Made by a program: the position numbers and the translations under genes. The notes below the pieces were generated by a model. That model did no database searches, was not told where the DNA came from, and was given only the letters and a program-made list of their open reading frames with translations. From Planctomycetota bacterium (GTDB lineage: Bacteria > Planctomycetota > UBA1135 > GCA-002686595): DNA of 64,000 nucleotides. Below are positions 3,726 through 23,588 of the stretch, one piece after another. The stretch is taken from the NCBI GenBank assembly GCA_016795325.1, contig JAEUHY010000012.1, forward strand, positions 434,001 through 498,000, read 5' to 3'. The first letter of the stretch is position 1; each line of letters begins with the position of its first letter.

Positions 3726-3923
3726 GGGAACTCCTGTGGGGAAAGGCAACCCGGCGTTGCGGCGTCGCACGCCGCCGCCGGGGTCGCGGTCGAGAGAAAG
3801 CCCGCTGTGTGCGGCTTGCGGGCCGCGAGTCTAGGCGCGCCCCGGGGCAAGCTCCAGTGCGCGGAAGAGTCCCACGGAGGAGAGCCCCACGGCCGCGTCG
3901 GAGGGGCGGCCCATCGCGGCGCC

Positions 3924-4268
3924 TCAGCGCCCGCTGCGCGACAGGCGCTCGATCTTCGCCGCCAGCACGAAGTCCGCGCGCGCGAGCCCGTCGATCGTGT
4001 GGGTCCACAGCGTGACGGTCAGCGAGCCCCAGCGCACGAGCAAGTCGGGGTGGTGCCCCTGCGCGTCCGCCAGCGCGCCGATCGCATTGGCGAACGCCAG
4101 GGCCTGCGCGAAGTCGGCGAACTCGAAGCGCCGCTCGAGCTTGCGCTCGGCGAGCACGCGCCAGCCGGGCCCGAGTTCAGCGGTCAGTTGCGCGAGTTCC
4201 GCGCCTCCCAGCGGCGCAACGCCGCCGCGGCAAGGTTCACAGTTCTCGTCCGCCAGGCTGGTGTTCAT
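3924..4268 (-). CDS. phhB: 4a-hydroxytetrahydrobiopterin dehydratase (pterin-4a-carbinolamine dehydratase)
   Basis: The 114-residue product dehydrates 4a-hydroxytetrahydropterin, the step that recycles the pterin cofactor after aromatic amino acid hydroxylation. The family signature is present: GHHPDLLVRWGSLTVTLWTH, then GLARADFVLAAKIE. The His-His-Pro triplet is the catalytic centre in characterised members. The start at 4268 is preceded by AGGAAC at a suitable distance; a longer version from 4304 would run over the thiD start. It is divergent from thiD with 41 bp between start codons. No pterin-dependent hydroxylase is visible here, so the physiological partner is unknown. Confidence 0.9.
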   Translation of the reverse strand: MNTSLADENCEPCRGGVAPLGGAELAQLTAELGPGWRVLAERKLERRFEFADFAQALAFANAIGALADAQGHHPDLLVRWGSLTVTLWTHTIDGLARADFVLAAKIERLSRSGR

Positions 4269-20399: not shown

Positions 20400-22562
20400 T
20401 CAACTGGCGCGAGCCTGGTTCTCGATCGCGCCCTCGGGCAGCGCGAGCACGCGCGAGCAGCGCGCGAGAACGTCTGGCTGATTCGTGGCGATGATCAGCG
20501 TCCACGGCGCCTTCGGATCGAACAGCACGTCGAACACCCGTTTGCGCGCGTCCTCGGCGAGCTCCTCGAAGAAGTCGGTGACGAGCAGGAGCCGCGGCCG
20601 ACCGGCGACCGCGCGGGCCACCTGCAGGCGCACGATCTGGCCGGAGGAGAGCGGGCGTCCGCTCGACGTGAGCGCCGTCTCGAGTCCATCCGGCAGACGC
20701 TCGATCTCGTCGAGCAGTCCCAGCCGCTTGAGCGCCTCGTGCACGTCGTCGTCCGTCACGAACGGACGCGTGACGCGCACGTTCTCGCGCACAGTGCCCT
20801 CGAACGTCTCTACCGCTTCGACCAGGCTCGCCGTGCGGCGCAGCGATTCCAGCGAGAGCGTGCGCAGGTCGCGCCCATCGACGCGGATCGTCCCGCCCGA
20901 AGCCTTGCGCAGGCCCCAGATCAGTTGGAGCAGCGAGGATTTCCCGCTTCCGCTCGGGCCGCGCACGCCGACGCGCTCGCCCGGGCGAACGTGCATCGAG
21001 ATGTGGTCGAACACCGGCTGGCTGTGCGTGCCGAAGCTGAGCGAGCGCAACTCGACCTCCATGCCCGCACCGCGCACGAGGCTCAGGTGGTGCTCCCCAC
21101 CCTGGTGCTCGACCGGCAGGTCGAGCAGCTTGCCGACCTTGTCCGTCGCCGCCATCAAGTCGTAGAACGACTCGAGGTGCTTGCCGAGTTTGGCGACCGA
21201 GTTCACCACCAGCGTCACGATCAGTTCGGCTGCGACGAGTTGCCCGAGCGTCAAGGTGCCTTCGATGACGAGCAAGCCGCCCACGCTGAGCAACGCGGTG
21301 CTCGCCAGCACCTGGAGCACGTAGGTGCCGATGTAGTGCGAGAACACCACGCGGAAGTGCTCGGCGCGGTGTTCGAGGAAGCGCCGCGCGAGGCGGTCGG
21401 AGCGCTCGAACACGAAGCGCAGTGCGCCGCTCGACTTGTAGAGCAGCGGATTGCGGGCGAGTTCTTCGAGCCACGCGACCGCTTCGTACTTCGCCTTGCT
21501 TTCCGCCTTGGCGGTCTTGATGCCGCGGCGCACCGGCCCGATCACGATCAACGCGATGGCGAGCAGCAGGACGACGTCAAAGGCCAGCAGCAGCGGGTGG
21601 TAGAAGGCCAGCACCACCAAGCCGACCGTAGCGCTGAGCAGGAGCGACAGTCCGTCGAGCAGCAGGAACGCGCCGAGCTTCTGGATCGCGATGACGTCGA
21701 GGAAGCGGTTGACGAGTTCGGGCGCGTAGTAGTGCTCGTGGACGCTCATCCCCAGGCGCGGCAGGCGGGCCGTCAGGTCGGCGAACACGCGCACGAACAG
21801 ACGGCGCTGCAGCATTTCGACGACCCAGGTCTGCAACGCCGTCAACAAGGCCGCGAAAGACAGGCCCACGAACAGCAGCAGCGCGACGACGACGAGCGGC
21901 GGAATCGCGCCGCCGAGCGCCACGAAGTTGACCAGCGACTGGACCGCGATCGGCGTCGCCAGCGAGAGCACGCCGATCGCCACCGCGAACACGGCCACGG
22001 CGAAGATGTCCCCGCGGTCCGGTGAGACCAGGGTCCAGAGGCGCTTCAGCGGAGGCGGAGGTTCGGCGTGCGCGTGCTCCCCGCCGTGTTCTTCGTCCGC
22101 CTCCGTGAGGTTGCCCAGCCGCGGCTTGAGCCATCGCAGGCGCCTTTCGCCCTCGAAGCCGCACAGCAAGGCCAGCTCGGGCAGCGCGACCTCGCGCACC
22201 TGCTCGCCCTCGTCGACGCCGCGGATCGTGACGCGCGCGCCGGCCTCGCTCTTGCGCACGAGCATCCAGCGCGTCGTGCGGCGCCCGCTGTCGTCGGCGG
22301 CTTCGAGCGCCGTCAGCAGCGGCTCGTCCCAGCGCAGCCACTGCAGGAGTTCCTCGTGGCTGGCCTCCACCACCTCGAGGTGCACGTCCGCGGACTCGGC
22401 CGCGAGCTTGAGCCAGTCCAGCGCCGCGAGCGGCACTTCGCCATCGGCGGGGAGTGCGCGTTCGAGCTCACGGACGAGTGCCCCGAGCACCTCGGCGGGA
22501 GCTGTCGGACCGGCGGTGAGGTCCGCGAGCGAGCGCGCGGCGGGTTCGATCTTGCCCTGCAT
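20400..22562 (-). CDS. ABC exporter, fused permease-ATPase with degenerate catalytic residues
   Basis: The 720-residue product has an N-terminal region (residues about 1-145) that looks like the inactive C39-peptidase-like domain of type I exporters. It lacks the catalytic cysteine. An ABC transmembrane domain (about 170-470) and a nucleotide-binding domain follow. Walker A (GPSGSGKSS, about 533) and the signature LSSGQ (about 637) are intact. The Q-loop Gln is replaced by Glu (SLVEAVE). The Walker B Glu is replaced by Phe (LLLVTDFFEE). The H-loop His is replaced by Asn (IIATNQ). ATP hydrolysis may therefore be slow or absent. It heads the exporter operon; the substrate is unknown. Confidence 0.87.
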   Translation of the reverse strand: MQGKIEPAARSLADLTAGPTAPAEVLGALVRELERALPADGEVPLAALDWLKLAAESADVHLEVVEASHEELLQWLRWDEPLLTALEAADDSGRRTTRWMLVRKSEAGARVTIRGVDEGEQVREVALPELALLCGFEGERRLRWLKPRLGNLTEADEEHGGEHAHAEPPPPLKRLWTLVSPDRGDIFAVAVFAVAIGVLSLATPIAVQSLVNFVALGGAIPPLVVVALLLFVGLSFAALLTALQTWVVEMLQRRLFVRVFADLTARLPRLGMSVHEHYYAPELVNRFLDVIAIQKLGAFLLLDGLSLLLSATVGLVVLAFYHPLLLAFDVVLLLAIALIVIGPVRRGIKTAKAESKAKYEAVAWLEELARNPLLYKSSGALRFVFERSDRLARRFLEHRAEHFRVVFSHYIGTYVLQVLASTALLSVGGLLVIEGTLTLGQLVAAELIVTLVVNSVAKLGKHLESFYDLMAATDKVGKLLDLPVEHQGGEHHLSLVRGAGMEVELRSLSFGTHSQPVFDHISMHVRPGERVGVRGPSGSGKSSLLQLIWGLRKASGGTIRVDGRDLRTLSLESLRRTASLVEAVETFEGTVRENVRVTRPFVTDDDVHEALKRLGLLDEIERLPDGLETALTSSGRPLSSGQIVRLQVARAVAGRPRLLLVTDFFEELAEDARKRVFDVLFDPKAPWTLIIATNQPDVLARCSRVLALPEGAIENQARAS

Positions 22563-23118
22563 GGATGGGCGCGTTGGATGGGTGCGTGGAGTGAAGGGAC
22601 AGCAGTTCAGCGAACACTCGACCGGCGCGCGCGCATCCAACGGCGCGAGCGCAGCAGCAGGCGCGGGGCACGGCTCGCAGCCCGCCCGCAGCGGCGCAAG
22701 CGACCGGCTTCCGGCTCGCTGTGCTCGACCCGCTGAAGGTCAATCCGCGCCAGGGCTTGGCTCGCGCCAAGTCCCGACGCCCGCTCACGGGTGCTACGCC
22801 GAGGCGTCGCACGGAGATGGGGCAACCGGAGCGAGCCGCGCGCACGGGTGCGAACGTCGGTTGCGGACCGCGGAGAGCCGGCCGCTTTCAGAGCGCGGGA
22901 AGGTAGCAGCGCCGACGGGTCCTCTGCGAGCCCGAAGAAGCCCGGGCGCCGCCGCCGTGTCAACGTCGTGCACAACGGCGCGGCGCCATCGCGCCAGGCC
23001 TGACAAAGACGCCCAGATCGGCCGAGCTCCGCGCTCCTTGCCCAGCACGCGCTCAGCCAACATCGCACGAACGAAGCCCGATGGCGCGAATCTGACACCA
23101 GCGCCCCAGCTCCAAGCC
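22563..23118. other. Intergenic region without a recognisable gene
   Basis: Between the ABC gene start and the repeat array there are about 550 bp with no open frame resembling a known family. The most distal part, from about 23050, shows faint remnants of the array (for example GGCTTCGTTCGTGCGATG on the minus strand, compared with GGCTTCTTACCTGCGATG in intact units). The promoter of the exporter operon should lie near 22570-22750, but I cannot pick a convincing -35/-10 pair. Confidence 0.4.
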
Positions 23119-23134: not shown

Positions 23135-23249
23135 TGGCAACGCGGCCAGGATCCGACCCGCGTCCGCGCCCACCACCACCGCAGGTAGGAAGCCTTCCGG
23201 CGCGAATCCGAAACCAGCCCGACAGCTGCAAACCGCCAGGCCGATTGAG
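23135..23249 (-). repeat. Degenerate third unit of the tRNA-tail tandem array
   Basis: This copy is about 115 bp and matches the intact 131-bp units with many substitutions and a deletion of about 16 bp next to its tRNA-tail end (23135-23159). Its first hairpin (about 23214-23241 on the plus strand) has several C-to-T changes, yet 11 base pairs remain possible because the changes give G-T pairs. Confidence 0.75.
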
Positions 23250-23380
23250 TGGTAGCGCGGGCAGGATTCGAACCCACGCGCGGGCGCGCAGCGTCCGCGC
23301 CCACCACCATCGCAGGTAAGAAGCCTGCCGGCGCGGGAACGAAATCGGCCCGGCGGCTGTAAGCCGCCGAGCCGATTGAG
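23250..23380 (-). repeat. Second 131-bp unit of the tRNA-tail tandem array
   Basis: Positions 23250-23274 are an exact copy of the last 25 nt of the initiator tRNA gene (T-arm 3' half, acceptor strand and CCA). The remaining 106 bp differ from the neighbouring unit at seven positions by my alignment. Stems are kept: 12 bp at 23347-23373 and 7 bp at about 23281-23301. Confidence 0.92.
23347..23373 (-). terminator. Terminator-like hairpin inside the second array unit
   Basis: A 12-bp stem with a 3-nt loop, homologous to the tRNA terminator at 23478-23504. Two substitutions in the stem swap the place of the G-T pair but keep all 12 pairs; the downstream T-tract is interrupted (GATTTCGTTCCC). 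Confidence 0.6.
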
Positions 23381-23511
23381 TGGTAGCGCGGGCAGGATTC
23401 GAACCCACGCGCGGGCGCGAAGCGTCCGCGCCCACCACCATCGCAGGTAAGAAGCCTGCCGGCGCGAAAACGAAATCGGCCCGGCGGCTGAAAGCCGCCA
23501 GGCCGACTGAG
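23381..23511 (-). repeat. First 131-bp unit of the tRNA-tail tandem array
   Basis: The unit directly follows the tRNA. Reading on the minus strand, it runs from the base after the tRNA CCA through three predicted hairpins. These are a terminator-like 12-bp stem, GCAGG/CCTGC with a 7-nt loop, and GGGCGCG/CGCGCCC with a 7-nt loop. It ends in an exact copy of the tRNA's last 25 nt (23381-23405). The spacing from the tRNA tail to this copy and on to the next is exactly 131 bp each time. Confidence 0.93.
23478..23504 (-). terminator. Intrinsic terminator of the initiator tRNA gene
   Basis: Eight bases after the CCA end, a 12-bp stem (one G-T pair) with a TTC loop is followed on the minus strand by GATTTCGTTTT. 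The same element recurs in each array unit. Confidence 0.75.
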
Positions 23512-23588
23512 TGGTAGCGCGGGCAGGATTCGAACCTGCGACCTCCGGGTTATGAGCCCGACGAGCTGCCAGACTGCTCCACCGCGCG
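23512..23588 (-). tRNA. Initiator tRNA-fMet (anticodon CAT)
   Basis: The 77-nt gene folds into a full cloverleaf with CAT in the anticodon loop CTCATAA. Three features mark the initiator. The first base pair is a mismatch (C1 opposite T72). The anticodon stem has three consecutive G-C pairs (GGG/CCC). The D-arm sequence AGCAGTCTGGCAGCTCGTCGGGCT is typical of fMet tRNAs apart from small changes. The CCA end is encoded. In E. coli position 72 is A, so C1-U72 is a variant, but still unpaired as needed to escape EF-Tu and allow formylation. A promoter lies just upstream, overlapping the aroK stop. Confidence 0.95.

Follow-up and report, generated by a model that had tools for sequence, protein, structure and literature searches.

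A tandem array with direct and inverted copies of the tRNA end behind an initiator tRNA gene of a planctomycete

The initiator tRNA gene on the minus strand of the window (the whole stretch of 64,000 nucleotides of planctomycete DNA that was analysed) is followed by a tandem array of two intact units and one decayed unit, in which the end of the tRNA recurs in both direct and inverted orientation. The same plan is shared by relatives, above all Pla163 and Pla86, and is also that of the tyr repeats of Escherichia coli. With moderate confidence, we read the array as a tandem array of the tRNA-linked repeat (TLR) type at an initiator tRNA, whose rods ending in UACCA are likely released as small RNA on read-through. 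Transcription would read through the first hairpin of the array, each unit would form a rod with a UACCA end behind its terminator-like hairpin, tRNA-processing enzymes would cleave at the CCA end, and the rod would leave the tRNA transcript as a small RNA, any function of which is inferred.

Anatomy of the array and its predicted fold

The array is confirmed as a real feature. The original prediction that the tRNA tail recurs at 131-bp steps is borne out by copies that match the tRNA-fMet at 25/25 nt in units 1 and 2 (table 1), and TRF reports one array, at 23160-23536, with a period of 131 and 2.9 copies. The decayed third copy that had been proposed is also present, with 20/26 matches, but at an interval of 115 bp and not 131 bp. 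What had been missed is the inverted tail copy in each intact unit. From the tRNA outwards, the order in intact units is the terminator-like hairpin, the inverted tail copy (I), the apical hairpin, and the direct tail copy (D). In the window's genome, which is 89.9% complete, there is a single tRNA-fMet match at an E-value of 1e-14 or better.

Table 1. Coordinates of the initiator tRNA gene and of the array features in the window
Feature	Coordinates	Strand	Remarks
tRNA-fMet	23512..23588	-	Initiator tRNA; CAT, C1/T72, CCA encoded
Repeat unit 1	23381..23511	-	131 bp
Repeat unit 2	23250..23380	-	131 bp; differs from unit 1 at seven positions
Repeat unit 3	23135..23249	-	115 bp; decayed and shortened
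Terminator-like hairpin, unit 1	23474..23508	-	16 pairs, then T-rich tract
Terminator-like hairpin, unit 2	23343..23377	-	Copy; stem kept, unflagged by terminator consensus scan
Terminator-like hairpin, unit 3	23212..23246	-	Copy; stem kept via G-T pairs, unflagged as terminator
I arm, unit 1	23441..23465	-	Inverted tRNA-tail copy
I arm, unit 2	23310..23334	-	Inverted tRNA-tail copy
Apical hairpin of predicted rod, unit 1	23411..23435	-	
D arm, unit 1	23381..23405	-	Direct copy of the tRNA's last 25 nt, with CCA end
D arm, unit 2	23250..23274	-	Direct copy of the tRNA's last 25 nt
Decayed direct copy, unit 3	23135..23160	-	20/26 matches

The count of seven differences between the two intact units is exact. 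Three of them fall in the first stem, where pairing is kept, three others lie in a loop or linker, and the remaining one adjoins the loop of the apical hairpin, where a pair is lost in the register of unit 1. The claim that all the differences keep pairing or are unpaired thus stands for six of the seven. The first stem, said to stay fully paired with G-T pairs in the third copy, does so over 16 bp in all three units, with six G-T pairs in unit 3.

The persistence of this stem is one of the points in favor of a reading that we consider rather improbable, in which the units are back-up terminators keeping the strong tRNA transcript out of a co-directional downstream gene. Pfam identifies the next long gene on the minus strand (20400-22640) as an ABC transporter, and the core hairpins of relatives described below sit behind housekeeping genes, both of which agree with this reading. 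On the other hand, the terminator consensus scan flagged the T-rich tract in unit 1 only, units 2 and 3 having lost it, and the tail copies are left unexplained. The number of terminator-like sites (2, against a shuffled mean of 1.2) shows no excess, and this and the flag in unit 1 only also count against the TLR-type reading. Two further candidates were rejected. ARAGORN and Rfam detect one tRNA only, which speaks against full or pseudo-tRNAs within the units, and the mascRNA-like Rfam matches are weak (20.1 and 19.6 bits in the window and 28.6 in G001, a genome of the same genus, for a cut-off of 42.5). The array is probably not coding either, judging from its period of 131, which is not a multiple of three, and the overlying frames are taken as chance frames in GC-rich DNA.

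For each intact unit, folding predicts a rod with UACCA at its end. The inverted tail copies score 13 in both, and for unit 1 this compares with 11 for the best of 300 dinucleotide shuffles; in all seven units tested, from seven genomes and six genera, the I arm beats all 300 shuffles. In the predicted fold of the window unit, the terminator-like hairpin precedes an I-D rod with UACCA free (z of −3.6 and −3.2 for the two 87-nt rods and −6.2 for the 131-nt unit), and folds with a free UACCA end are predicted for the window, G001, Pla163, and G005, with z between −3.2 and −8.4. The window rod does not exceed shuffles in helix length, which 86 of 200 shuffles attain for unit 1 and likewise for unit 2, and it does not clearly exceed them in the count of paired bases, which 42 and 40 of 200 attain. 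In seven of the nine planctomycete units tested, the D-I helix is longer than in at least 195 of 200 shuffles, the two exceptions being the window's own. Because the D arm of the window is paired no more than in shuffles, the case for the window rod rests on the I-arm match and on the relatives. Stem-preserving change, another element of the original prediction, is found in the first stem and in the core hairpin of relatives, but the pairing of the window rod does not exceed that of shuffles.

Relatives with the same plan

By using a combination of DNA searches (61 genomes), a scan of GTDB contigs, and a pattern search in 154 genomes of the class, we looked for relatives of the array. The strict tail-to-tail pattern occurs in six of these 154 genomes, namely, the window's genome, G001, G005, Pla86 (G016), Pla163 (G030), and G094, in which the units are inverted relative to the tRNA; the reversed control pattern gave no match. 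In a sample of the phylum, 2/392 genomes match a pattern whose narrower spacer range misses Pla163 and Pla86, and none of the 351 genomes outside the class does (by row count). This restricted distribution within the class, together with the ongoing decay of unit 3, speaks against the TLR-type reading.

We then considered chance levels and specificity. The loci scanned, 127 in all, were tRNA-fMet genes plus some truncated copies, each with at least 100 bases downstream (eight shorter loci were excluded). A tail or inverted-tail copy scoring 12 or more is present at 24 of them, and at 0 of 127 after shuffling of the downstream letters. The 24 positives include three Sumerlaeota tandem tRNA sets, the tRNA cluster L090, the decayed second tRNA of L094, the gammaproteobacterium L037, and a few short matches. 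The Sumerlaeota matches were rejected as arrays of such units, being ordinary tandem tRNAs. Among the 33 tRNAs scanned in each of the two genomes so treated, the window's (G000) and Pla163, only tRNA-fMet carries an array (30 loci were taken per genome, out of 46 and 41 tRNA matches, respectively); six non-fMet matches correspond to neighboring tRNA genes by their coordinates in five cases and to a 12-nt match in the last.

Pla163 and Pla86 are complete genomes, and such named relatives bear out the original guess of a planctomycete. In Pla163, the array behind fMet consists of six units of 137 bp each, in which the core hairpin and the 25-nt D arm show 0/51 varying columns versus 15/86 elsewhere (p 0.001), with region limits set after viewing the units and a varying column just before the D arm. 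The tails of this array differ from that of its own tRNA, yet I and D pair together, which indicates that the arms are not simply tracking the tRNA; in the I arm, two of the three changes break a pair. Genomes of family f5 (e.g., L104 and L021) have direct copies and no inverted tail copy at the threshold used. Copy number at this locus, for which a comparison of related genomes had been suggested, does vary between relatives, with the six units of Pla163 as an example.

Other loci deserve mention. In G001, contigs L002/L033 and L081 place different units directly after tRNA-fMet. This suggests that copy number varies within the population sampled or that the assembly is broken there. The only tRNA-fMet match of G094 (L034, 5280-5740) lacks an encoded 3' acceptor strand and CCA and has intact inverted tail copies just downstream, as though an inversion or a misassembly had affected the array at this gene. 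In a Granulosicoccaceae metagenome-assembled genome (MAG; L037, around 3830-4220), a direct tRNA-fMet tail copy and repeated inverted pieces lie behind the gene, and the pairing of the D arm with upstream sequence is not beyond shuffles; this gammaproteobacterial locus is apparently an independent instance. Genera g36 and g61 (L083, L079, L121, and L094) have a similar gene after tRNA-fMet; close to that gene, G088 shows recurring truncated 3' parts of the tRNA, in the manner of cassettes made of a gene and a tRNA end. Finally, in genus g25 (L063, L064, and L065), tRNA-fMet is followed by a terminator and then by a recurring hairpin of the GGCGCGCGGGTCC type, with no obvious tail copy.

The main rival to the TLR-type reading is that the array is a functionless scar, a possibility that we regard as real though somewhat doubtful: replication would fold back at the terminator hairpin and invert the gene end, and tandem duplication would then multiply the units. 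According to the available text of PMC7202029, quasipalindrome template switching makes imperfect inverted repeats more perfect. Palindromes running from the terminator into the gene end lie behind fMet in Pla86 (L015) and in G081 (L125), and at L266 in Pla86 the end of a protein gene has a perfect inverted copy of 33 nt. The decay of the third window unit and the junctions of the tRNA with different units in G001 contigs L002 and L081, as if copy number varied, also fit a scar. Against it stand the invariance of the D arm and core in Pla163 while the rest of the unit varies, the recurrence of the same plan at the same gene in several genera, and the rarity of gene-end copies elsewhere. Direct copies (score of 13 or more) and inverted copies (15 or more) were each found at 1 of 265 gene ends in Pla86, and at 0 of 241 in Pla163 and 0 of 40 in the window, in a strict scan that missed the rpsG array within its own Pla86 sample. 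As a separate observation, the fold-back of L266 (gene end 2694, minus orientation) spans a short terminator hairpin and looks very recent.

Dispersed core hairpins in relatives

The core GGCCCAACCGCTGRCGCGGTTGGAGC, which forms the apical hairpin in Pla163, Pla86, and other relatives, is dispersed in their genomes. With up to three mismatches, it is found in 14 of the 154 class genomes, and the reversed control gave two matches, in two other genomes. A looser core pattern has 21 matches in Pla86 (control, 6), 20 in Pla163 (2), and 8 in G096 (0), of which 14, 12, and 6, respectively, have at most one mismatch; some of the three-mismatch matches are likely due to chance. The window's genome has an apical hairpin of another sequence, whose pattern matches the three array units and one other place at three mismatches; as the control also gives three matches, this additional place is likely fortuitous.

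In 15 of the 21 core loci tabulated (out of 24), the hairpin follows, by eye, the end of an identified gene, with the tail or stop codon in the palindrome. The genes concerned are tRNA-Thr, tRNA-Ser, and protein genes, tRNA-Pro being a further case. Pfam searches on seven of the 15 core-linked reading frames identified housekeeping genes in all seven: rpsG (in two genera), rpoB, and those for FKBP, the 2-oxoacid dehydrogenase E2, a sigma-70 factor, and the small chain of ribonucleotide reductase. The same core hairpin ends rpsG in two genera (L205 and L250) and rpoB in two genomes of one genus (L214 and L256). In Pla86 and Pla163, 11 loci other than fMet were tabulated, and at 7 of them the gene end with its stop codon is also, by eye, repeated downstream. 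Over 18 distinct cores, hand-picked from the fMet and dispersed loci, 96.7% of the cells are paired and 5 of the 10 pairs change on both sides, compared with a mean of 2.1 in shuffles and 0-2 in slid registers, which is a further argument against a functionless scar. That a covarying hairpin lies behind housekeeping genes such as rpsG and rpoB suggests that the copying of tails extends beyond tRNA genes.

Two tandem arrays stand apart from these loci: a short one behind another protein gene in Pla86 (L270, gene end 14537), which repeats the last bases of the gene and its stop codon without the core hairpin, and a large one in Pla163 (L295, 13200-14000), with periods of 127 and 154 and, by eye, without gene-end copies. 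A leading-strand bias was rejected as a candidate, the sampled GC skew being weak in both genomes.

A more general explanation, which we hold to be unlikely, is that these are gene-tail elements: a lineage-specific core hairpin would spread behind strongly expressed genes across distant bacteria and rewrite its arms into copies of the gene end, whether tRNA or protein. The RNA of the fMet array would then be a CCA-ended mimic of the initiator acceptor and T-arm, competing for tRNA-processing or translation-initiation factors.

Mobility of a more conventional kind appears highly improbable, whether the tail copies are viewed as attachment scars of an integrative element or the units as mobile hairpins of the REP type that a Y1 transposase would move. 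The 25-nt tail repeat does resemble the target duplications of integrases, copies of the core hairpin are scattered over Pla86, Pla163, and G096, and G096 has 11 Y1 transposase matches, one of them about 10 kb from a core copy. Pla86, however, has 21 core matches and zero Y1 transposase matches (2 were found in Pla163 and 1 in the window's genome). The GTAG and CGTC tags define two REP super-families, according to the available text of PMC3733652, and the window units carry neither of them. The core hairpins of relatives begin with GG and end with GC or AC and likewise lack both tags; elsewhere in unit bodies, CGTC occurs in G005 and GTAG in Pla86. A phage or integrative element at the array itself was rejected, as there is no phage match and about 206 kb lie between the array and the nearest tyrosine integrase match (PF00589) of the contig. 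The loci compared in relatives gave no sign of a unit excised from another tRNA or newly inserted there. Truncated tRNA-fMet copies located elsewhere in relatives looked at first sight like attachment sites.

The dispersed hairpins invite comparison with REP/BIME elements, as they lie behind genes and sometimes form short tandem arrays. They differ from them in that their arms copy the host gene's own end, in that they have no GTAG or CGTC tag, and in the absence of Y1 transposase matches from Pla86.

Comparison with the tRNA-linked repeats of E. coli

The available text of PMC8144298 places tyrT and tyrV among the TLRs (22 genes at ten loci), whose 3' end comprises 18-19 bp identical to the upstream tRNA or rRNA gene. 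E. coli TLRs were first described in 1978 and, according to the same text, a function is known for none of them beyond the evidence on rrA, rrB, and rrF. These three lie between dual rRNA terminators, are made by read-through, and are processed, and binding of CsrA and Hfq has been reported for them (PMC8144298, as available).

The resemblance to tyrT noted at the outset holds and goes deeper than was thought, tyrT and tyrV being members of this described class. In the tyr units, too, an inverted tail copy pairs with a direct one: D copies and an inverted copy are present behind both tyrT and tyrV of E. coli K-12, and the annotation of the RttR RNA stops at the final A of the D copy. In helix length, 5 of 13 E. 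coli units (four tyr and one lys) lie beyond shuffles, whereas the other eight fail. The statement that no initiator-tRNA counterpart was known is upheld for K-12, in which our scan detected no such unit at metZWV and metY, except for a 9-nt inverted match behind metY. For planctomycetes or an initiator tRNA, no report of units of this kind came up among titles and abstracts, with thin coverage of subscription journals.

Similarity of plan is not accompanied by similarity of sequence. The Rfam RtT family (RF00391) has no match in the window at E-values up to 1, nor in ten loci (relatives and one gammaproteobacterium) at E-values up to 0.5; as a positive control, it gave nine matches, some of them to the tyr repeats, in two of the three E. 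coli loci scanned. In blastn comparisons of six unit bodies with three E. coli bodies, the best E-value was 0.17, versus 7e-13 for the control pair argV and lysW. Given the lack of RtT matches and the chance-level similarity of the bodies, the array would work like a TLR without being a member of RtT.

The likeness of the rrA, rrB, and rrF units, by analogy, would lie in a repeat unit that carries a copy of the upstream gene end, sits between terminators, and is part of a read-through transcript; the E. coli units differ in being located behind 5S rRNA, one unit each. Our scan missed the rrfB unit at its threshold, and this comparison therefore rests on PMC8144298. If the planctomycete RNA has a role, it would most likely be that of a low-level RNA whose amount follows transcription of the initiator tRNA, as proposed for rrA, rrB, and rrF.

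Several traits differ from those of TLRs. The planctomycete units have another core hairpin, and their bodies share only short matches at chance level with those of E. coli; the array lies at an initiator tRNA, with a terminator-like stem in each unit; and relatives of the window also carry the plan behind protein genes. Both kinds consist of tandem units, each about 100-180 bp long, that follow the gene of a stable RNA and finish with a copy of its 3' end, CCA included; as in the E. coli tyr units, there is also an inverted tail copy, predicted to pair with the direct one. TLRs number one to five per locus, compared with three behind the tRNA-fMet of the window and six in Pla163. On these grounds of analogy, we regard the array as the counterpart, at the initiator tRNA of a planctomycete, of the E. 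coli TLRs. The occurrence of the TLR plan with unrelated sequence at this gene indicates that the plan arises or is kept repeatedly, and the planctomycete arrays offer a comparative test of what TLR-type units do.
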